Positions 1 through 9,720 of a stretch of 11,433 bases of DNA are shown here, one piece after another. Source of the DNA: a bacterium (GTDB taxonomy: Bacteria > NPL-UPA2 > JAGMAN01). A program made the position numbers and the translations under genes. Numbering within the stretch: the first letter of the stretch is position 1; the number at the start of each line of letters is the position of its first letter. The notes under the pieces are model-generated. The model saw only the letters and a list, made by a program, of their open reading frames with translations. It did no database searches and had not been told where the DNA came from. Location: positions 1-11,433 of the forward strand of contig JAGMAN010000094.1 in the NCBI GenBank assembly GCA_023130215.1, written 5' to 3'.

Positions 1-263
1 CTAAGTTTGCTATAACCATGGGAGTGGGAACTATAATGGAAGCACGAATGTGTATGCTATTAGCCAGCGGCAAGAGAAAAGCAGAAATTCTCGTTAGAGC
101 TATCGAAGGTCCGGTAACCACAAGTATTCCCGCCTCTATGTTACAACTTCATCCCAATGTTACTGTCATAGTTGACGAAGAAGCAGCCACTCACCTGAAG
201 CAAAAGGGTTATTACCAGTATGTGGAAAAAATGACCCAGCAATTGCAATCTGCTCAAATATGA
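1..263 (+). CDS. nagB: Glucosamine-6-phosphate deaminase, C-terminal part (5' truncated by window edge)
   Basis: This is the C-terminal ~87 residues of a NagB-type glucosamine-6-phosphate deaminase/isomerase, the cytoplasmic enzyme converting glucosamine-6-phosphate to fructose-6-phosphate and ammonia. The reading frame is open to the left edge: the codons before the first Met read K-F-A-I-T, so the ATG at 18 is internal. Seen: A-I-T-M-G-V-G-T followed by E-A-R-M, then the strongly conserved tail S-x-LQLHPNVTVIVDEEAA, which matches the end of known NagB proteins. The N-terminal half with the catalytic residues lies outside the window, so activity cannot be judged. The stop codon TGA overlaps the next start (ATGA), implying co-transcription and translational coupling with the acyl-CoA synthetase. 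Another member of the NagB/6-phosphogluconolactonase superfamily is possible, but the LQLHPNVTV tail favours NagB. Confidence 0.88.
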   Translation, partial: KFAITMGVGTIMEARMCMLLASGKRKAEILVRAIEGPVTTSIPASMLQLHPNVTVIVDEEAATHLKQKGYYQYVEKMTQQLQSAQI

Positions 264-2371
264 AAACTAAAAACTTTCAACAAATCTTTTATCCGTCCTC
301 AATTGCTGTTGTTGGGGCGACGAATACTCCGGGGACAGTCCCTAATGATATATTCACCAATATTATGCGAAGTGGATATCCCTGCCCCATTTACCCGGTA
401 AGTCCAGGTCACGCTACTATTTCGGGGGCCAGGGCTTATAAATATGTAATTGATATTCCGCATCCGGTTGATTTAGCAGTTATAGTTTTCCCGAGCACGG
501 TTTGCACTTTGGCACTTGAACAATGTGGACAAAAAGGAATCAAAGCCGCAATTGTTATATCAGCCGGGTTCAAAGAAACTGGGCCAAAAGGCAAAGAGCT
601 GGAAGATAAATTAAAGGCAATCGCTGACAAATACAATATCTCAGTCATTGGACCAAATTGTTTAGGTGTGATAAATGCCGATCCTGTCGTGCAATTAAAC
701 GCCAGTTTCGCCCGGAAAATGCCTGAAGAAGGAGCCATAGGATTTTTGTCTCAAAGTGGAGCGCTCTGCACGGCTGTGTTAGATTATGCCTTAAATAAAC
801 ACATAGGCTTTTCTAAGTTTGTGAGTTTTGGTAACAAAGCAGATATCAATGAAGTGGATCTATTACAATATTTACTTAATGATGAGAAAACGAAGACCAT
901 TTTATTATACCTTGAAGAGATAAGTTTAGGAAGAGAATTGATTGAGTTGTTAAAGGAAAACAGTAACAAGAAACCTATATTGGCATTAAAGTCCGGACGA
1001 ACTTCAGAAGGAATTGCGGCCGCCCAATCTCACACCGGTTCACTGGCCGGGTCGGACGAAGTTTGCGATGCTGCTTTCAAACAACTGGGTATAATTCGCG
1101 CCAAAAACATTGAAGAGATGTTTAACCACGCTATAGCTTTAACTTACCAACCTCTCCCGAAATCAAATAGGATAGCTATTGTTACCAATGCCGGTGGTCC
1201 AGGAGTAATGGCGGCTGATGCATCCATTGAGAATGGATTGGAATTAGCTAAATTTAATCCTCAGACAAGTGAAGTACTTAAGAAGTCATTACCCCGAATG
1301 GCTAATACAAAAAATCCAGTTGATGTAATTGGAGATGCCCGGGCCGACCGTTACGATGCGGCTTTGACCAGTATTTCTCAAGATGATAATGCAGACGGCA
1401 TCTTATGTATCCTCACACCGCAGTCGATGACCGATATAGAATCAATTGCTCATTTGATCTGCAGAGTTGAAAAAGAAATGAGGAAACCGCTGCTATGTTC
1501 ACTTATGGGTGGCAGTGATGTTTTGAGTGGAATCGAAATATTGCAAAAAAGACATATACCTCATTATTCGCTACCTGAATCAGCTTCTCAATCTTTTGCG
1601 GCAACTGTTAGATACGCAAGATGGCTTTCACGCCCAAAAAGCATAGTGAAAAAAGTTGAAGTGAATTACTCGCGAGCAAAAGGAATCATAGGGAAGTTTC
1701 TCAGCCCGGATAAAAATTACTTGCCCGAACCGGAAGCTCTGGAGGTTTTGAATTGTTATGGATTCCCGATTTTGAAGTATAAAATAGCTAAAACGAGTGA
1801 AGAAGCTGTGAAATTTAGCGAGGAGATTGGTTTACCTGTGGCCTTAAAAGTTGTTTCTTCAAATGTGATACATAAATCTGATGCAGGTGGTGTATTATTA
1901 AACTTAAAAAATAAAGAAGAAGTTAAACGAGGATTCAAGCAAATAATTGATAATGTCCAGGCTAAAAAGCGAGATGCTCAGATTCTTGGAGTTATAGTAG
2001 AAGAAATGGCTCCTCCGGGGAAGGAAGTGATTATGGGTATTAAGAGAGATTCAAGTTTTGGACCGGTAGTTATGTTTGGTTCAGGCGGAGTATATGTGGA
2101 ATTAATCAAGGATATAGCCTTCCGGGTGGCCCCGATAACTGAACTGGATGCCCGGGAAATGCTTAAGGAAACCAGGTCTTACATTTTGCTATCAGGTATC
2201 AGAGGCGATAGACCTGCAGATATTGAGTCAGTTGAAGAATGTCTGGAACGTCTTTCTCAATTAGCTATGGATTTTCCTCAGGTCAGTGAACTGGATATCA
2301 ATCCGCTAATTGTTCATGCAAAAGGTAAAGGTTGTCACATAATAGATGCGAGGATCATGCTTACTATTTAG
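260..2371 (+). CDS. ADP-forming acetate/acyl-CoA ligase, alpha-beta fusion
   Basis: This 703-residue protein is an NDP-forming acyl-CoA synthetase, interconverting acetyl- (or acyl-) CoA + ADP + Pi with acetate (or acid) + ATP + CoA in the cytoplasm. Domains in order: CoA-binding Rossmann domain (~6-130, with VVGATNTPG near 18-26 and GPNCLGV at 131-137), succinyl-CoA-ligase-like domains (~150-455), and a C-terminal ATP-grasp domain (~480-700). The phosphohistidine of the alpha part is His258 in QSHTGSLAG. The second conserved histidine of the beta part is His538 in HKSDAGGV. GSGG (607-610) and ELDINPL (677-683) fit the ATP-grasp nucleotide and metal site. All key parts are intact and the length is typical of single-chain family members. 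The start overlaps the nagB stop, with no clear Shine-Dalgarno sequence, suggesting reinitiation. Whether it runs toward ATP formation or acetyl-CoA formation, and its exact acid substrate, cannot be read from sequence. Confidence 0.92.
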   Translation: MKTKNFQQIFYPSSIAVVGATNTPGTVPNDIFTNIMRSGYPCPIYPVSPGHATISGARAYKYVIDIPHPVDLAVIVFPSTVCTLALEQCGQKGIKAAIVISAGFKETGPKGKELEDKLKAIADKYNISVIGPNCLGVINADPVVQLNASFARKMPEEGAIGFLSQSGALCTAVLDYALNKHIGFSKFVSFGNKADINEVDLLQYLLNDEKTKTILLYLEEISLGRELIELLKENSNKKPILALKSGRTSEGIAAAQSHTGSLAGSDEVCDAAFKQLGIIRAKNIEEMFNHAIALTYQPLPKSNRIAIVTNAGGPGVMAADASIENGLELAKFNPQTSEVLKKSLPRMANTKNPVDVIGDARADRYDAALTSISQDDNADGILCILTPQSMTDIESIAHLICRVEKEMRKPLLCSLMGGSDVLSGIEILQKRHIPHYSLPESASQSFAATVRYARWLSRPKSIVKKVEVNYSRAKGIIGKFLSPDKNYLPEPEALEVLNCYGFPILKYKIAKTSEEAVKFSEEIGLPVALKVVSSNVIHKSDAGGVLLNLKNKEEVKRGFKQIIDNVQAKKRDAQILGVIVEEMAPPGKEVIMGIKRDSSFGPVVMFGSGGVYVELIKDIAFRVAPITELDAREMLKETRSYILLSGIRGDRPADIESVEECLERLSQLAMDFPQVSELDINPLIVHAKGKGCHIIDARIMLTI

Positions 2372-2407
2372 GAGTTAACAAGATGCATCAGCGAAAGGAG
2401 TAATGCA

Positions 2408-3679
2408 ATGCGATTAGTTATTTTTGAAGATGAAAAGTATGACCAACTATATCCCCTCTCTCTAACAAGAGCTGTTTTTGAATTAAAGTGTGGGATTACC
2501 AGTTTGGCAGAGAAAATCAGGAGAACATATCCTGCCAATGAAATTTCTTATTTTGTTCGAGATTATATTGCACCGACGTTAAAAAAACGTCATCCATCTG
2601 ATTCGGTGAATGATATTGGGAGCATTGGAAATGACGATGTTCTCATTATTAACGGGCGCTGCTTATTTATGAATACACCCCCAAATCTTTCAGGTGAAGA
2701 AGGATGGGTAGGAGAAAATAATGATTTGGTTTACGCAAAAGTAAACAAAGAAACCTTGGATGAGTTTCACGAAGATAGTTTTGAAGAATTACTTGACTAT
2801 ATAAAATCAGGAGTAAAAAAGGTGAGAATTGATTGCAAGATGATCAATTATCCCTGGGACCTGATTGATTATAACTCTCAAGCGCTCCTTGATGATTTCA
2901 AAAGGATGAAAAAAACAGGTATTGAAGGATTAATGGCAGAGGAGTCAGTAATTCACGGCCCCAAAGAACAAGTCTACATAGCAAAAGAAGCAGAAGTGCA
3001 TCCGATGGTATGTCTCGACACGAAAGGCGGCCCGGTGTTCATAGACAAAGGAGCAGAAATCCATCCGTTTACCCGTATTGAAGGGCCTTCTTATATAGGT
3101 AAAAATTCCATCATCTTAGGAGCTAAGATTCGTGAAGGATGTTCAATTGGACCTGTGTGCCGGGTAGGTGGGGAAGTTGAAGAGAGCATATTTCATGGTT
3201 ACTCGAATAAATTTCATGACGGATTCATGGGGCATAGCTATATCGGGGAATGGGTTAACATTGGGGCACTGACTACGAATAGTGACTTGAAAAATGACTA
3301 TAGTAATGTCAGCGTTATGGTAAAGGGAAAACCTGTTGATACAGGGAGTATCAAGGTAGGATCTTTCATCGGTGACCATACCAAGACCAGCATAGGTACT
3401 TCTTTGAATACCGGAGCTCATATTGGTGCTTTATGCATAATTGTATCTTCCGGAGGAGTTTTACCAAAATATATCCCCTCAGGGAGCTGGTTTATCAATA
3501 ATTCCGTGACTAAAGGTTTTGGCTTTAAGAAATTGCTCGAAACAGCCGAAAAAGCTATGGGAAGAAGGAAGGTGCAATTCACTGAGGAAGATACCCTGCT
3601 ATTAAAAAAAGTATATGAAGTTGCTAAACCAGATAGAGACTTTTTGATTAAGAAGTCAAGATACGGCCAGAACTCATGA
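2408..3679 (+). CDS. Alternative GlmU-family protein: nucleotidyltransferase-like N domain plus left-handed beta-helix acetyltransferase domain
   Basis: This 423-residue protein resembles the 'alternative GlmU' family (UDP-GlcNAc diphosphorylase/glucosamine-1-phosphate N-acetyltransferase, known from Bacteroidetes and other phyla). The N terminus has the family pattern F-E-D at 6-8 and LYPLSLTRAVFELKCGI at 14-30, rather than the usual L-A-G-G-x-G-T-R-M loop. Residues ~185-360 form hexapeptide repeats of a left-handed beta-helix (I-x-x-x-A-E-V-H-P, IGKNSIILGA, IGPVCRVGG). GHSYIGEWVNIGA (275-287) and the following T-N-S-D-L lie where classical GlmU has its acetyltransferase active-site histidine, so His276 is the likely counterpart. 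A Lys/Arg-rich tail follows to 423. AAAGGAG at 2394-2400 lies 7 bases before the ATG. It is followed 59 bases on by a second GlmU-like gene. The acetyltransferase assignment is from motifs; nucleotidyltransferase activity is uncertain. Confidence 0.8.
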   Translation: MRLVIFEDEKYDQLYPLSLTRAVFELKCGITSLAEKIRRTYPANEISYFVRDYIAPTLKKRHPSDSVNDIGSIGNDDVLIINGRCLFMNTPPNLSGEEGWVGENNDLVYAKVNKETLDEFHEDSFEELLDYIKSGVKKVRIDCKMINYPWDLIDYNSQALLDDFKRMKKTGIEGLMAEESVIHGPKEQVYIAKEAEVHPMVCLDTKGGPVFIDKGAEIHPFTRIEGPSYIGKNSIILGAKIREGCSIGPVCRVGGEVEESIFHGYSNKFHDGFMGHSYIGEWVNIGALTTNSDLKNDYSNVSVMVKGKPVDTGSIKVGSFIGDHTKTSIGTSLNTGAHIGALCIIVSSGGVLPKYIPSGSWFINNSVTKGFGFKKLLETAEKAMGRRKVQFTEEDTLLLKKVYEVAKPDRDFLIKKSRYGQNS

Positions 3680-3738
3680 ATTGCAATTAAATAAGGCTGA
3701 TCGAGATAGGCATTGCTCTTGAAATTGGAGGGGCGGGA

Positions 3739-5262
3739 ATGGCTGAACAAAATCATCAGAAGATAATAGAAACGATTGGGGATCTGAGCTCTGAAATAGA
3801 TATAACCTCAAAAGATATATCGGTCATATTGGCTGGGGGTCACGGGAAAAGAATTAAATCGGAGACTCCCAAGATGCTTCATAAGATATGGGGAGTTCCT
3901 ACTGTTTTTAGGGTAGTGAATACAGTAACTGAAGGATTGGATAACGATAATAAAATAATAGTTGTTGGCATAAAAGGTGATGAAGTAGCTCATGAAATCG
4001 GAAAGAGGAAAAACACTGCCTTTGTTTATCAGAAAGAGCAGAGGGGAACAGGCCATGCGATTCAAGTTGCCTTTGAATCTTTTAAGGGAAAGCAGTTCAA
4101 CGGAAATATCTATATTTTTCCTGGCGACATGGGACTGGTAACAACTGAAGCAGTCAGGAAATTCAAGGAAGAATTTGAGCACTCTAATTTTGATATGATG
4201 GTCTTAACCGGCATATATGATGGTAGGCCGGAGGACAATTATTATGGCAGGGTTATCAGAATGTTAGGGAAAGAGGCTACCGGTCAGGAGAGTGGAGAGA
4301 AAATAGGCCGGGTGATGGAGATAAAGGAGCACAAAGATATATTGAGTTTAAGAAGCGACTATTCACTGGATTTTGACGGAAGTGCATATAAATTCACCCG
4401 GGATGAATTATTGAATATAAGAGAATTCAATGGCGGGGTCTATGCCTTTAAAGGCGATAAATTGAGAGAACATATTATGGAGATAGACGCAGATAATGTT
4501 CAGGGCGAATTCTATTTAACTACCCTGGTTACTATCTTCAATGGTTATGGTCTGAAAGTTGGCGCCTCACGGGTACCAGATAACACAGTAATTATCGCTT
4601 TTAACAATAGAGCCGTTTTAAAAGATATGGAGGACATCGCCCGCAGCCGGATATACGGGAAATTAAAAAACATAATTACTTTTAAAGACAAAGAAGATTT
4701 CTTCCTGGCAGATGAAGTGGTGCAGCAAATCTTGGATCTGGATCGCAGAGAAGAGACACTTGACATTGTAATCGGAAAAGGAGTCCATCTTCATAAAGGA
4801 GTGCAGTTAAATAGGGGAGTACATATCAAGAAAAATAGTCTTTTGGAAGGGAACATTAAATTAGGAAAGAATGTGACTATTTGGGAAGGCGTCACCTTAA
4901 GCACCTATCCTGACCAGACGATGAGGATAGGGCAGGGGAGTGAAATTCTACAGGGCGACATCGTAAAAGGAAACATGGAAATTGGGGAGAACTGCCGCAT
5001 AGAATCATCTGTTAACATGACCGGAAGCGATGACTGCCCAACCAGAATTGGTAAAAGTGTCACCATAAAAGGCACCAGTTATATATTCGGCTCTGTCATT
5101 GACGATGATGTTTGGATAGAACATTCTGTTATTAAGAATAAGCGAGTAGAGAAAGTCCTCAGAAGGGATGGCTCCATTCAGCAGATAAGATACTATCTTC
5201 CTCAACCGGAGGGAATTGATTCAATAACTGGTTTATCCCCGAAACAGCAGAGAAGAAACTGA
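3739..5262 (+). CDS. GlmU-like sugar-phosphate nucleotidyltransferase with divergent beta-helix C domain
   Basis: This 507-residue protein has an N-terminal GT-A nucleotidyltransferase domain (~27-300) with a full set of UDP-GlcNAc pyrophosphorylase signatures: LAGGHGKRIKS (31-41), PKMLH (44-48), QRGTGHA (101-107), PGDMG (128-132, metal-binding Asp130), EIKEHKD (194-200), NGGVYAF (231-237) and NVQGEFYLT (253-261). This predicts transfer of UMP from UTP to N-acetylglucosamine-1-phosphate or a similar sugar phosphate. The C-terminal part (~345-465) has hexapeptide beta-helix repeats (IGKGVHLHKGVQL, IKLGKNVTI, IGENCRIESS). It lacks the H-x-x-Y-x-G-D-x-x-I-G-x-x-x-N-I-G-A-G-T block of active GlmU acetyltransferases. 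There is a ~26-residue leader before the core and extra residues between EHKD and NGGVYAF compared with E. coli GlmU. GGAGGGG at 3727-3733 fixes the ATG at 3739. UDP-GlcNAc is the favoured product; another UDP-sugar is possible. Confidence 0.82.
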   Translation: MAEQNHQKIIETIGDLSSEIDITSKDISVILAGGHGKRIKSETPKMLHKIWGVPTVFRVVNTVTEGLDNDNKIIVVGIKGDEVAHEIGKRKNTAFVYQKEQRGTGHAIQVAFESFKGKQFNGNIYIFPGDMGLVTTEAVRKFKEEFEHSNFDMMVLTGIYDGRPEDNYYGRVIRMLGKEATGQESGEKIGRVMEIKEHKDILSLRSDYSLDFDGSAYKFTRDELLNIREFNGGVYAFKGDKLREHIMEIDADNVQGEFYLTTLVTIFNGYGLKVGASRVPDNTVIIAFNNRAVLKDMEDIARSRIYGKLKNIITFKDKEDFFLADEVVQQILDLDRREETLDIVIGKGVHLHKGVQLNRGVHIKKNSLLEGNIKLGKNVTIWEGVTLSTYPDQTMRIGQGSEILQGDIVKGNMEIGENCRIESSVNMTGSDDCPTRIGKSVTIKGTSYIFGSVIDDDVWIEHSVIKNKRVEKVLRRDGSIQQIRYYLPQPEGIDSITGLSPKQQRRN

Positions 5263-5328: not shown

Positions 5329-6069
5329 ATGAAACTAACATTCCTTGGAACAAATGGCTGGTATGATACTGAAACGGGAAATACTGTATCGTGTTTGCTT
5401 GAATCTGCTGATTATAATATTGTATTTGATGCCGGAAACGGTTTACATAGATTAGATAAATATGTTAAAAATAAAAAGCAAATTTATCTCTTCATTAGTC
5501 ATTTTCATCTTGACCATATCATCGGACTTCATCTCTTAGATAAATTCAATTTTAAAAGTCTGAAAATATTTGGCCAAGAGGGAACTGCTATGCACCTGAA
5601 TTCTATTATGAAACAGCCTTTTACAAAACCGTTTGATGATTTAGCTTGTGAGGTGGAGATTAGCGAGCTACATGAAGGAGACCATAAAATCCCATTTCCA
5701 GTTACAATAAAGGAACTGTTGCATTCTTCTCCTGTCATTGGTTATAGATGTGAATTGGACGGAAAAATAATTTCCTATTGCACAGATACAGGAAAATGTA
5801 AAAATCTTTTAGAGTTAGCAAAAGATTCTGATGTTTTGATAACTGAATGCTCCTATAAGTGTAAAACAGAAGATCCAAGATGGCCTCATTTGAATCCGGA
5901 AACTGCTGCTTGCATTGCAAAAGAAGCAAGAACCAAAAGGCTTTTACTTACTCACTTTGACCCTATGCAATACAAGTCTTTGGAAGAAAGAGAAGAAGCA
6001 GAAAAATCTGCCAGAAAGATTTTTAGAGATACAATAGCTGCAAAAGATTTAATGCAATTTGAGATATGA
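5329..6069 (+). CDS. Metallo-beta-lactamase-fold hydrolase, RNase Z-like/phosphodiesterase group
   Basis: This 246-residue single-domain protein has the MBL fold with a complete dinuclear metal site: H58-F-H60-L-D62-H63 (the HxHxDH motif), His132 (in LHSSPVIGYR), Asp153 (TDTG) and His209 (LTHFDP). His187 in PHLNPETAACIA is a further conserved position. The N-terminal MKLTFLGTNGWYDT and the TDTG...ECSY order are typical of the RNase Z/PhnP/cyclic-phosphodiesterase branch, not of beta-lactamases. No flexible exosite arm as in tRNase Z is evident, and there is no signal peptide, so a cytoplasmic phosphodiesterase or similar hydrolase is likeliest. The substrate is unknown. GAGGAGG at 5317-5323 sits 5 bases before the ATG. 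The gene lies 66 bases after the second GlmU-like gene and could end the same transcript. It is noticeably AT-rich. Confidence 0.85.
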   Translation: MKLTFLGTNGWYDTETGNTVSCLLESADYNIVFDAGNGLHRLDKYVKNKKQIYLFISHFHLDHIIGLHLLDKFNFKSLKIFGQEGTAMHLNSIMKQPFTKPFDDLACEVEISELHEGDHKIPFPVTIKELLHSSPVIGYRCELDGKIISYCTDTGKCKNLLELAKDSDVLITECSYKCKTEDPRWPHLNPETAACIAKEARTKRLLLTHFDPMQYKSLEEREEAEKSARKIFRDTIAAKDLMQFEI

Positions 6070-6138: not shown

Positions 6139-7104
6139 TCATGCTTCTTCGGGGAGAAGCGATGGGCCATACTTGTGCTCCAGCCCTATCGGCATGCGGT
6201 GGTAGAACTTCTTTATTGCTTCCTTTCCACAGAAACCAGCTCCCGAGACAATGGCATTAGCTGTGGCACAGGCCATCCCCAAGCGTATGGCTTCTTCCAT
6301 TCCTCTTCCTTTAGTGAGAGAATAGATCAGGCCAGCCACTAAGGCATCACCGGAACCAACTGAGTTAACTACTTTTACCTGCGGAGGAGAAGCTGACCAG
6401 ATTCTCTCGTTACTGGCAACTACTGCTCCCTGCCTTCCCAAGGAGAGAGCCACTATCTTAATCCCTTTATCAAGAAGGGACCTAATCACTTTAATCATAT
6501 CCTTTCTGCGGCGCAGTTTCTTTCCCGCAATTTCCTCTAACTCCTTGCGGTTGGGTTTGACCATAAAAGGGGAAGCCTTGAGCCCTTCAAGGAGTGCTTC
6601 TCCCCGGCTATCCAGCACGGTTCTCACTCCTTCCCCCTTAGCTAATTGAATTAACTCTGCATAAAAATTCTGTCGAACTCCAGGAGGGAGACTTCCAGCT
6701 AAAACTAAGAACTTGCTCCTCATCATTATCTTCTTAAACTTTCCCATAAACTCGCTGAGTTCTCTCATATCCACCTTCGGTCCCGGCTCCATAAGGTGAG
6801 TCTGCGTCTTAGAGGTTGGGTCCAAGATGGTCAGATTGTTTCTTGTATTCTCTTTTATCTTGACGAACTCCGCCCTAAGTCCTTCTTCCTTCAGTTTCCT
6901 CTCCATTAGCTCACCGGTTGGGCCTCCAAGGAAGCCGGTAGCTATCACTTCCCCTCCTAAGACTTTTATTACTCGGGCAACATTAATTCCCTTGCCGCCG
7001 GCTACCTGCCGGGTGTCACTAACCGCCAGAGTGGCGCCGACGGAGAACCCACCTACGCTGACGATCCTATCCAGACTTGGGTTTAGAGTGACGGTGGCGA
7101 TCAC
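6139..7104 (-). CDS. PfkB-family sugar kinase, 1-phosphofructokinase/tagatose-6-phosphate kinase type
   Basis: This 321-residue ribokinase-family enzyme is predicted to phosphorylate fructose-1-phosphate (FruK) or tagatose-6-phosphate (LacC) with ATP in the cytoplasm. Seen: N-terminal TVTLNPSLDR typical of FruK/LacC; PfkB signature 1 from G36 (GGKGINVAR through GFLGG, 36-61); GSLPPG (137-142); KPNRKELEE (183-191); and signature 2, NSVGSGDALVAG (247-258), with catalytic base Asp253. The start is GTG, supported by AGGAGG about 10 bases upstream on this strand and by the TVTLNP start seen in homologues. It overlaps the 3' end of ricT by 38 bases and is last in the tmk-holB-ricT operon. No fructose PTS or DeoR-type regulator is nearby, so the physiological substrate is uncertain. 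The C terminus ends just before the convergent gap to the MBL gene. Confidence 0.87.
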   Translation of the reverse strand: MIATVTLNPSLDRIVSVGGFSVGATLAVSDTRQVAGGKGINVARVIKVLGGEVIATGFLGGPTGELMERKLKEEGLRAEFVKIKENTRNNLTILDPTSKTQTHLMEPGPKVDMRELSEFMGKFKKIMMRSKFLVLAGSLPPGVRQNFYAELIQLAKGEGVRTVLDSRGEALLEGLKASPFMVKPNRKELEEIAGKKLRRRKDMIKVIRSLLDKGIKIVALSLGRQGAVVASNERIWSASPPQVKVVNSVGSGDALVAGLIYSLTKGRGMEEAIRLGMACATANAIVSGAGFCGKEAIKKFYHRMPIGLEHKYGPSLLPEEA

Positions 7105-7918
7105 GCAGCTCTCTCCTCCTCAGCCCTGGTCTGTGTCGGGTTAATTCCCCTACTGGAATCTCCGCTTTCTGTCCCTCTTTCAGTTCTACTGTCACTGTCT
7201 GCTTGAGAATATTCAAGTCAACTATCTCTCCTTCCCCCTGTTCAGTAATTACCTTCGTCCCCTCCTTGGGTAACCTTCTTCCCATCTCCCTGTAGGTCTG
7301 GCATTCATAGGTTAGACAACAGAGAAGCCGACCACAGACTCCAGAAACCTTGCTCGGGTCCAGGGATAGTCTCTGCTCCTTGGCCATGCGAATAGTCACT
7401 GGCTCAAATTCCTTCAGGAAGGTGGCGCAGCAAAGGGGTCTGCCACAGGGACCAAACCCTCCCAGACGCTTAGCTTCATCCCTTACTCCAATCTGGCGCA
7501 TCTCAATTCTTGCTTTGAAAAGGTGAGCCAGATCCTTTACTAATTCCCGAAAATCTACCCTCTCTTCTGCTATAAAGTAAAAAGTAATCCTGCTACGGTT
7601 GAAGGAGTACTCGGCATCTACCAACTTCATGGGTAGTTCTTTATCCTCTATTTTCTGGAGGCAAGTCTTGAAGACTTCTCTCGCTTTCCTCTCATTTTCC
7701 TCCAGTCTCTTCCTGTCCTCAGCAGTTACTGCCCTTTTCACTTTCCTGGGGGATTCTTTCCTTTCTTTAGTTTCTGGCTCGGATACAACTTCTGCCCACT
7801 CTTCACCGGATTCCAATTCTACCAGCACTTCATCTCCTGGGTTTAGATAAAGCTCCCGGGTATCGCAATAAATGATCTTACCACTCTGACACAATCTAAC
7901 TTGAACTACCTCTCGCAT
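7067..7918 (-). CDS. ricT: RicT/YaaT-like PSP1-domain protein
   Basis: This 283-residue protein belongs to the PSP1/YaaT family. In Bacillus subtilis RicT acts with RicA and RicF in an iron-sulfur-binding complex that affects RNase Y-dependent mRNA processing and phosphorelay. Seen: an N-terminal beta-rich segment with NPGDEVLVELESG (26-38), a charged linker (~48-80), a PSP1 domain (~80-150), then the family's cysteine cluster FGPCGRPLCCATF (155-167) and VCGRLLCCLTYE (194-205). Cysteines at 158, 163, 164, 195, 200, 201 and 206 are all present and are probable cluster ligands. The tail (~262-283) is Arg/Lys/His-rich. AGGAG about 7 bases upstream supports the ATG at 7918, which overlaps the end of holB by 23 bases. 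The holB-ricT order is conserved in many bacteria. Its role outside Bacillus is less clear. Confidence 0.9.
   Translation of the reverse strand: MREVVQVRLCQSGKIIYCDTRELYLNPGDEVLVELESGEEWAEVVSEPETKERKESPRKVKRAVTAEDRKRLEENERKAREVFKTCLQKIEDKELPMKLVDAEYSFNRSRITFYFIAEERVDFRELVKDLAHLFKARIEMRQIGVRDEAKRLGGFGPCGRPLCCATFLKEFEPVTIRMAKEQRLSLDPSKVSGVCGRLLCCLTYECQTYREMGRRLPKEGTKVITEQGEGEIVDLNILKQTVTVELKEGQKAEIPVGELTRHRPGLRRRELRDRHRHSKPKSG
7115..7120 (-). promoter_or_regulatory. Ribosome binding site of the sugar kinase gene
   Basis: Read on the - strand, AGGAGG lies within the 3' coding part of ricT, 10 bases before the GTG at 7104. It supports a GTG start for the kinase and suggests that its translation starts inside the upstream gene. 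Confidence 0.7.
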
Positions 7919-9029
7919 ATTCCAACTCCTCAGCTATCTTCATGGTCATGGCTTCTAAGCTAAGACGAAGATTGACATTGCGTTCTATGAATCCCTTCGT
8001 CTCCTCTATTGACTTTATAATCTTACTTACTGCCTGAGAAGAGACACTGACAGCTCTCTTCTCTATCTCTTCCTTCCTATCCAAATTTATAATTTCTCCA
8101 CCCTCCTTAAAGACTAAAAGGTCACGATAGTAACCAATAATTATATCCAGGATTTCCCCTACCTTTCTCCTTGTCTCTCCGGATAGAAAAGCCATCTTTT
8201 CCTTCTTTATCTCCCCAATCTGCTCTTTGCTAAATACCCCTTCTACTTCTCTTAACTCATCCTTTAGTCTCTCTTCCAGCTTCTCTCTGAAGTTGGAGGT
8301 GAGCTCTAACATTTTCTCTGCTACCTGCAGAAGCTTCTCTAAATCATCCTGATGGGAGATCTGACTCCCTAAATTGAGAATCTTCTCTCTCTCCTCCCAG
8401 ACCGCTTTCTCCTGGAGGGACAGAGCCTTCCCCAACCTTCCTTCCGAAAGGAGGGAGAGAAGCCGAGCCTTATTAGGGGAGAGATTGAGCTTCTTAACTA
8501 AGTAATCTTCTATTCTCTTTGGACTGAGTGGCGAAAACCTCATCATCTGACAGCGAGAGACGATAGTAGGGAAAAGAGAAGATGGGTGAGAGCTGATCAG
8601 GATAAGGATAGAATCAGCGGGGGGCTCTTCTAATGTCTTGAGAAGAGCATTGCTGGCCTGGGCCGTCATCCGGTCTGCTTCCATAATCAAGTAGACTTTC
8701 TTGCGACTCTGGTATGGTTTTAAGGAAATTTGCCGGCGAAGCCCTCGGATATCATCTATCCCTATCTGACGGGACAGCCCGGCTGGCCTCACCCAGTTGA
8801 CATCGGGATGGGAAAGCTTTTCGATTCTACGGCAGTCCGGACATCTCCCACAGGCATCTGAATCTGCTCTCGGACAATTCAGGGCCTGAGCTAAGGTCTT
8901 GGCTACCATAGTCTTCCCTATTCCATCTGGCCCGACAAATAGGTAGGCGTGGGCTATCCGGCCATCCTTGAGGGAATTTTTGATGAGCTTGATTATTCTT
9001 TCCTGGCCGATGACATTGCTAAAAGGCAT
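7896..9029 (-). CDS. holB: DNA polymerase III clamp-loader subunit delta'
   Basis: This 377-residue AAA+ protein is the delta' subunit of the clamp loader, which helps place the sliding clamp on DNA at the replication fork. Seen: N-terminal FSNVIGQERI; Walker A GPDGIGKT (33-40); a four-cysteine zinc module C52, C60, C63, C66; a Walker B-like strand VYLIMEADRM (112-121); LLKTLEEPP (129-137); and the SRC motif (158-160) contributed to a neighbouring ATP site. The C-terminal ~170 residues are helical and Lys/Glu-rich, as expected for the collar region. An intact Walker A differs from E. coli delta', which does not bind ATP, but is common in other phyla. Start context reads GGGGCAGG a few bases before the ATG. 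It lies between tmk and ricT. A DnaX paralogue is unlikely: the protein is short and lacks the tau extension. Confidence 0.93.
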   Translation of the reverse strand: MPFSNVIGQERIIKLIKNSLKDGRIAHAYLFVGPDGIGKTMVAKTLAQALNCPRADSDACGRCPDCRRIEKLSHPDVNWVRPAGLSRQIGIDDIRGLRRQISLKPYQSRKKVYLIMEADRMTAQASNALLKTLEEPPADSILILISSHPSSLFPTIVSRCQMMRFSPLSPKRIEDYLVKKLNLSPNKARLLSLLSEGRLGKALSLQEKAVWEEREKILNLGSQISHQDDLEKLLQVAEKMLELTSNFREKLEERLKDELREVEGVFSKEQIGEIKKEKMAFLSGETRRKVGEILDIIIGYYRDLLVFKEGGEIINLDRKEEIEKRAVSVSSQAVSKIIKSIEETKGFIERNVNLRLSLEAMTMKIAEELEYARGSSS

Positions 9030-9049
9030 AACCTGCCCCTACAATTCTG

Positions 9050-9098
9050 TAGTCTAAAGTCTAAAGTCCATAGTCTACACTTTATAGTCTATAGCCTG
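9050..9098. repeat. Array of seven 7-base tandem repeats, consensus TAGTCTA (- strand TAGACTA)
   Basis: On the + strand the exact 7-base periods are tagtcta, aagtcta, aagtcca, tagtcta, cacttta, tagtcta, tagcctg, starting at 9050. Three units are identical and the others differ by one to three bases. The array fills most of the 52-base tmk-holB gap and extends across the tmk stop codon (9082-9084) into its last codons. Such heptamer arrays resemble the short tandem repeats known between genes in cyanobacteria and other bacteria; the function is unknown. Confidence 0.8.
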
Positions 9099-9720
9099 CT
9101 TTCTTAAGTAACTCCTCCACCTGCTGTCTGATTCTCTTTTGAACCTCAGCTATGGAACCCTTAACTTTCACTATCTTTATCCTCTTCGGCTCCTGCTTTG
9201 CTAATTTTAGATATCCTTGTCTTACTCTCTGATGGAATTCTCTTTTCTCCCGCTCTAACCGGTCCCCTTTACTTCCCGCCCGTGCTCTCTTCAGTCCCTG
9301 AGGAATATCTATATCTAAAAGTATGGTTAAGTCCGGCTTCAGGCCTGCGGTAGCTACCTGGTTCATCTTCCTTATCAACTGTTTATTCAGCCCACGCCCA
9401 TATCCCTGGTAAGCTAAAGAGGAATCTGAGAAGCGGGTAGACACAGCCACCTTTCCCCGGGCTAAGGATGGTTTCACCACTTCCTCTACATGTTGAGCTC
9501 GACTGGCTAAATAAAGAAGCAGTTCAGTCAAGGGAGTCATTCCCTTGCTGCGAGGAGAAAGCAAAATCTTCCTCAGTCTTTCCCCTATCCGGGTCCCGCC
9601 AGGCTCATGGGTGCAAAGGACATCTATCCCTTTCCTCAAAAGGTAGTCAGACAACCTCTCCGCCTGGGTGGACTTACCACTACCCTCCGGACCCTCCAGA
9701 GTAATGAAGATGCCTTTCAT
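9082..9720 (-). CDS. tmk: Thymidylate kinase
   Basis: This 212-residue P-loop kinase phosphorylates dTMP to dTDP with ATP, an essential cytoplasmic step in dTTP synthesis. Seen: P-loop GPEGSGKST (10-18), THEPGGT (37-43, dTMP site), SRAQHVEE (73-80), FSDSSLAYQGYGRGL (97-111) and a LID-like basic segment RARAGSKGDRLE (145-156). The length is normal for bacterial Tmk. An oddity is that the usual Asp of the D-R-Y/F motif is replaced by Thr95 (S-T-R-F), while Arg96 is kept. The last codons (A-G-Y-R-L) and the stop fall in a heptamer repeat array. It heads the operon tmk-holB-ricT-kinase. The start ATG at 9720 has only a weak purine stretch upstream and may be close to the transcription start. Confidence 0.94.
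   Translation of the reverse strand: MKGIFITLEGPEGSGKSTQAERLSDYLLRKGIDVLCTHEPGGTRIGERLRKILLSPRSKGMTPLTELLLYLASRAQHVEEVVKPSLARGKVAVSTRFSDSSLAYQGYGRGLNKQLIRKMNQVATAGLKPDLTILLDIDIPQGLKRARAGSKGDRLEREKREFHQRVRQGYLKLAKQEPKRIKIVKVKGSIAEVQKRIRQQVEELLKKAGYRL

Follow-up and report, generated by a model that had tools for sequence, protein, structure and literature searches.

A recurrent bacterial gene set that may link an acyl carrier protein and an ADP-forming acyl-CoA ligase to amino-sugar metabolism

Background

Why would a gene for an ADP-forming acyl-CoA ligase (ACD) overlap a nagB gene and be followed by two genes resembling glmU? This question is raised by a stretch of bacterial DNA of 11,433 nucleotides, here called the window, which is the whole of contig C131 in a genome assembly of 1.01 Mb that is 90% complete. 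An initial annotation of the window proposed that the ligase takes part in amino-sugar metabolism, either by returning acetate to UDP-GlcNAc synthesis or by making ATP from acetyl-CoA.

We therefore analyzed the genes of the window and searched for similar arrangements elsewhere. The searches covered 98 relatives of the host, 294 Elusimicrobiota genomes (for one NagB paralog, NagB2, only) and 82 genomes of the phylum that includes genome G053. Selected genomes were rechecked, and the assemblies are drafts.

Results and discussion

Organization of the locus

Gene calls established the annotated order and strand of nagB, ligase and two GlmU-like genes, and domain searches confirmed their families. 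The genes of this run are as follows.

1 to 263, plus strand: 3' end (86 amino acids) of nagB2, encoding a NagB paralog with 77-79% identity to NagB2 of loci L004 and L005; the 5' part is on contig C115 (L057 8414-8964), with an exact contig overlap of 25 bp
260 to 2371, plus strand: fused ADP-forming acyl-CoA ligase (ACD), 703 amino acids, with CoA_binding_2, Succ_CoA_lig, Ligase_CoA_2 and ATP-grasp_5 domains; closest solved structure 8wzu
2408 to 3679, plus strand: glmA, alternative bacterial GlmU family (TIGR03991, 378 bits), with a left-handed beta-helix C-terminus
3739 to 5262, plus strand: glmB, GlmU-like nucleotidyltransferase plus beta-helix, below all GlmU cut-offs; 87% identity to the G002 protein and 71% to that of G003
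5329 to 6069, plus strand: MBL-fold (RNase Z-like) gene with a Lactamase_B_2 domain, last of the plus-strand run; 34% GC, GC3 0.25

The gene annotated as nagB does belong to the NagB family, but only its 3' fragment lies in the window. Positions 1-25 match exactly the last 25 bases of contig C115, which ends in the 5' part of nagB2, and the NagB2 protein joined across the two contigs has 262 amino acids and is colinear with its relatives in a Zixibacteriota locus (L004) and an Elusimicrobia locus (L005). The joined core reads nagB1 - DUF4954 - ACP - nagB2 - ACD - glmA - glmB, all on the plus strand, where ACP denotes an acyl carrier protein gene. Upstream of nagB1 on the plus strand of C115 are, in order, a transposase-like ORF (L057 511-1728), which was identified by eye only and is without a Pfam match, a DUF2204 gene, a PfkB-type kinase gene and a Fic-domain gene (L057 4260-5198; 33% GC); the MBL-fold gene follows glmB. 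The annotated ATGA overlap between nagB2 and the ligase gene is real, at positions 260-263. An identical 4-base overlap occurs in L005, and in L004 a 2-base gap separates the two genes. An Rfam search of the loci found neither a riboswitch nor a glmS ribozyme, and a promoter and terminator scan gave results at chance level.

Recurrence of the gene set

The neighborhood search found that the pairing of nagB and ligase is not unique to this contig and recurs above chance: a nagB-ACD-ACP set accompanied by a left-handed beta-helix (LbH) protein, either DUF4954 or GlmU-like, is present in 11 genomes from four phyla. These are not 11 independent events, for eight of the genomes belong to one phylum and three carry a recently exchanged cassette. 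The eight are among the 82 genomes of G053's phylum, in which the order is ACP-ACD-nagB with DUF4954 next to it. Gene order is reversed between two groups of genomes, and the paired NagB proteins belong to two well-separated subfamilies. Because the partners stay together through both gene orders and both subfamilies, functional coupling is suggested. Our literature search, in which few subscription journals were covered, found no description of the NagB-ACD pairing, of an ACP with NagB, or of the whole set.

The set has probably moved between lineages. GlmA of the window shares 75-78% identity with its counterparts from two other phyla versus 45% with that of G003, a member of the same order, and GC3 in the cassette is near 0.35 versus approximately 0.5 in host genes. 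The Zixibacteriota cassette (L004; L062 2039-6517) has approximately 40% GC versus 52-62% in downstream genes of the same contig, which is possibly chimeric. NagB1 clusters with the NagB proteins of G001 and G003. Thus, ACP-nagB2-ACD-glmA was probably acquired horizontally by the host, and we take glmB to be native to the lineage; the simplest account is that the foreign segment displaced a native glmA between a native-type nagB1 and the native glmB. A mobile cassette of genes that only happen to be adjacent, with no common function, would agree with the low-GC island in L004 and the by-eye transposase-like ORF. However, we consider this explanation very improbable, given the persistence of the partners across gene orders and NagB subfamilies and the strong purifying selection described below.

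A dedicated acyl carrier protein

The ACP gene (C115 8135-8386) lies outside the window, inside the 272-bp gap between the DUF4954 gene and nagB2. Its product scores 51.4 bits against PF00550 (cut-off 20.8), and the phosphopantetheine attachment domain has its serine. An LGA[DE]S motif is found in all 11 ACPs of the set, and the gene holds the same position in L005 (nagB1-ACP-nagB2-ACD-glmA) and L004 (ACP-nagB2-ACD-glmA). An ACP adjoins 11 of 11 nagB-linked ACD genes and none of 28 other full-length ACD loci, most of which had flanks of 1.1-1.5 kb. An ACP of this kind was likewise not found by this search at the G003 locus, where nagB-glmA-glmB occurs without an ACD.

Where genomes were inspected, another gene, located in a fab operon, encodes the ACP of fatty acid synthesis; in G098, the ACP of the set is the sole ACP found. 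The ACPs of the set also group apart from housekeeping fatty-acid ACPs in a tree (support 100/99). The set therefore carries an extra, divergent ACP that is distinct from that of fatty acid synthesis.

The ADP-forming ligase

The ligase retains the domain set of the ACD superfamily and its phosphohistidine, the catalytic His. It scores below the curated cut-offs of two named enzymes, namely TIGR02717 for acetate-CoA ligase (553.8 bits; cut-off 567.15) and NF045493 for 4-hydroxybutyrate-CoA ligase (724.2 bits; cut-off 1300). In a tree of 39 ACDs, all 11 nagB-linked proteins form a single clade (SH-aLRT 100), a result matched by no label shuffle. The ligase shares with characterized members such as Nmar_0206 (4-hydroxybutyrate-CoA ligase, PDB 8wzu) the order of its domains, the phosphohistidine and most of the pocket; it differs in belonging to a separate clade and in its scores, its linkage to nagB and ACP, and its CoA-binding domain.

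Differences specific to the clade occupy 8 of 141 positions in the N-terminal CoA-binding domain versus 1 of 230 in the ATP-grasp domain. When the CoA-binding domain is compared with all the remaining ligase, p = 0.016, in a modest test that ignores phylogeny. Clade-specific residues lie at positions 28, 30, 48, 61, 62, 77, 80 and 88; the changes include a glycine-to-proline replacement at position 28 and others at 48, 61-62 and 77-80. These regions presumably lie near bound CoA, as judged from succinyl-CoA synthetase, and the changes give modest support to what would be expected of an altered thiol carrier.

We also considered the acyl pocket as a pointer to the acid, and dropped it. The residues described for this pocket in Nmar_0206 and in the Korarchaeum enzyme (PMC11494057) are kept, and since they equal those of most other ACDs, the acid cannot be named from them.

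The genus of the host has a second ACD, next to secA or a methyltransferase gene (L016, L036); in the host itself it is seemingly split over two contig ends (G000:C127 5520-6107 and C128 7-1422).

NagB2 is an altered member of its family

Full-length NagB2 of L005 scores 288.6 bits against TIGR00502, above the curated cut-off of 236.9, and the window fragment by itself scores 74.5 bits. NagB2 shares with glucosamine-6-phosphate deaminase NagB the fold family and the catalytic positions Asp72, His143 and Glu148 (which we take to be the E. coli numbering), and it keeps the phosphate lysine and one loop threonine. Unlike that enzyme, NagB2 has its phosphate loop and lid arginine replaced. The loop that contacts the substrate phosphate reads DVS[ND]T[IV] in 3 of 3 NagB2 proteins versus a [PA][TS]G[SG][ST]P type in every other NagB aligned there, and the lid arginine is Gln or Lys in all three, with L075 the one other NagB that is without it. 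Roles for the loop, the lysine and the lid arginine were taken from a published account (PMC8369159).

For NagB2, dN is near 0.13 and dS exceeds 1.5, which indicates strong purifying selection, that is, selection for function. Because the catalytic positions are kept, the loop and lid are rebuilt, and dN is far below dS, NagB2 is likely functional with altered binding. An Asp141-to-Asn change in the NagB of L004 was rejected as a sign of inactivity, because Asn occupies that position in a solved NagB structure of the B. subtilis type (2bkv). Among the 294 Elusimicrobiota genomes, NagB2 was found only in the one already known.

Two GlmU-like genes

The initial annotation assigned both downstream genes to the GlmU family. 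This holds for the first: glmA passes TIGR03991, the alternative bacterial GlmU model (cut-off 225.3 bits). The second passes no GlmU cut-off, although it resembles the uridylyltransferase domain of GlmU. Neither reaches the 366.85 bits required by the canonical GlmU model TIGR01173 (glmA, 26.5; glmB, 168.2). Unlike GlmU and its alternative form, the host has two separate genes, and these are the sole strong GlmU-like candidates in its genome. A glmB homolog in the L005 genome lies within a glmM-glmB-glmS run (L061 7155-11931), and this run supports a putative role for glmB in UDP-GlcNAc synthesis, where it would be the uridylyltransferase.

Metabolic setting

The predicted tie between the ligase and amino-sugar genes is borne out by the 11 genomes; in G411, the neighbors of the set also include a GH20 hexosaminidase and a ROK kinase. 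In G053's phylum, ROK or BadF kinases neighbor the set in three loci, and some neighbors there look catabolic; those in the host genome look biosynthetic. The set resembles a nagBA-type GlcNAc operon in having nagB, sugar kinases and, in one case, a hexosaminidase, but it is without NagA and has an ACP, a ligase and an LbH protein instead.

Such neighbors invite a catabolic explanation, in which amino sugars are converted to fructose-6-phosphate and the ligase converts acetyl-CoA to acetate and ATP, as happens in other fermenters that have an ADP-forming acetyl-CoA synthetase. Acetate kinase was not found in the host genome or in G098 and G099, which harbor the two closest copies, as this explanation would favor. 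It is present, however, in most members of G053's phylum; moreover, the host already has another ACD, of the kind common to its genus, and the ACP is left unexplained. We therefore regard the catabolic explanation as unlikely.

Another explanation, which follows one of the initial proposals, is that the ligase turns acetate from N-acetyl groups into acetyl-CoA for GlmU-type transfer. ADP-forming ligases are reversible, and the glmA family is annotated as acetyltransferase/uridylyltransferase. Acetate was supposed to come from GlcNAc-6-P deacetylation, and this part is unsupported: neither nagA nor a hexosaminidase gene is within approximately 9 kb upstream, NagA was not found in the host genome (90% complete), where the only match was noise at 17 bits, and it was likewise not found in G098, G099, G447, G408 or G411. 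What stands of the earlier pathway is its amino-sugar theme. Simple acetate recycling, which we consider quite unlikely, leaves the dedicated ACP unexplained, and the changes in NagB and the lost GlmS likewise point away from it.

GlmS is missing from all three genomes of the host genus. In G003 the order is kpsF-glmS-trpG, whereas kpsF and trpG are direct neighbors on a single contig in each of the three genus members, which led us to reject an assembly gap (L107 3141-3253; L108 31-1184; L109 3549-4707; L110 1044-2197; L111 2534-5522). In G004, all that is left of glmS is roughly ten codons from its start and 28 from its end, mutually out of frame. The gene has thus been cleanly lost from the genus. 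MurA and GlmM are kept, and therefore UDP-GlcNAc is needed and NagB or a scavenged amino sugar must supply it. In this genus, the set most likely feeds UDP-GlcNAc.

One way to do so would be for NagB to run in reverse and make GlcN-6-P in place of GlmS, the set being a UDP-GlcNAc operon to which the ligase supplies acetyl-CoA. The loss of glmS, the retention of MurA and GlmM, and the grouping of nagB with glmA and glmB in G003 agree with this. However, both GlmS and the set are present in G098, G099 and G053, and neither GlmS nor NagB was detected in G004. Also, Akkermansia is without GlmS, and its NagB is unable to aminate at physiological levels (PMC5902328). Reverse operation of NagB is, in our view, improbable.

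A possible acyl-transfer module

Our preferred explanation is that the locus is an instance of a conserved amino-sugar module, in which an ACP, an ADP-forming ligase, a NagB-family protein and an LbH protein would together move acyl groups on or off an amino sugar. We put this forward tentatively, as plausible but short of probable. The phosphohistidine of the ligase would join a carboxylic acid to, or free it from, the thiol of 4'-phosphopantetheine, and in this clade that thiol might belong to the dedicated ACP, either in addition to CoA or in its place. Transfer of the acyl group onto or off the amino sugar would then fall to the LbH protein, with NagB controlling the supply of the sugar. 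This explanation draws support from the conservation of the ACP beside the ligase and from the residues specific to the clade in the CoA-binding domain.

A narrower form of the proposal is possible but doubtful. Here the ligase would be an ADP-forming acyl-ACP synthetase that loads or unloads the dedicated ACP by the phosphohistidine route, and a hexapeptide-repeat acyltransferase would move acyl groups on or off amino sugars from a repurposed NagB.

Several considerations weigh against the module. The ACP might act in regulation or be a passenger with no connection to the set, few independent events are behind the 11 genomes, and GlmU-type transfer could draw on acetyl-CoA from other sources and do without this ligase.

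If the module proposal is correct, then in several little-studied phyla amino sugars gain or lose acyl groups via a carrier of their own and a reversible, ATP-conserving ligase, a route that replaces plain acetyl-CoA and NagA. ADP-forming ligases would gain a new acceptor, and a role would be suggested for DUF4954. The source of cell-wall glucosamine in a genus that has lost glmS and keeps murA is a directly testable question.

DUF4954 and neighboring genes

A functional study of DUF4954 was not found in the literature search, with its small share of subscription journals. In G448, two different DUF4954 genes (L094 6549-8591 and 12679-14658) flank an ACP-ACD-nagB set. Elsewhere, a protein of 788 amino acids with a weak NagB domain, and mostly without a Pfam match, is encoded between DUF4954 and a GH20 hexosaminidase gene (L098 14540-16906). 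In both the window (6139-9720) and G447 (L093 95-4106), the set converges on a block that contains ricT and holB, an arrangement that may be due to chance.
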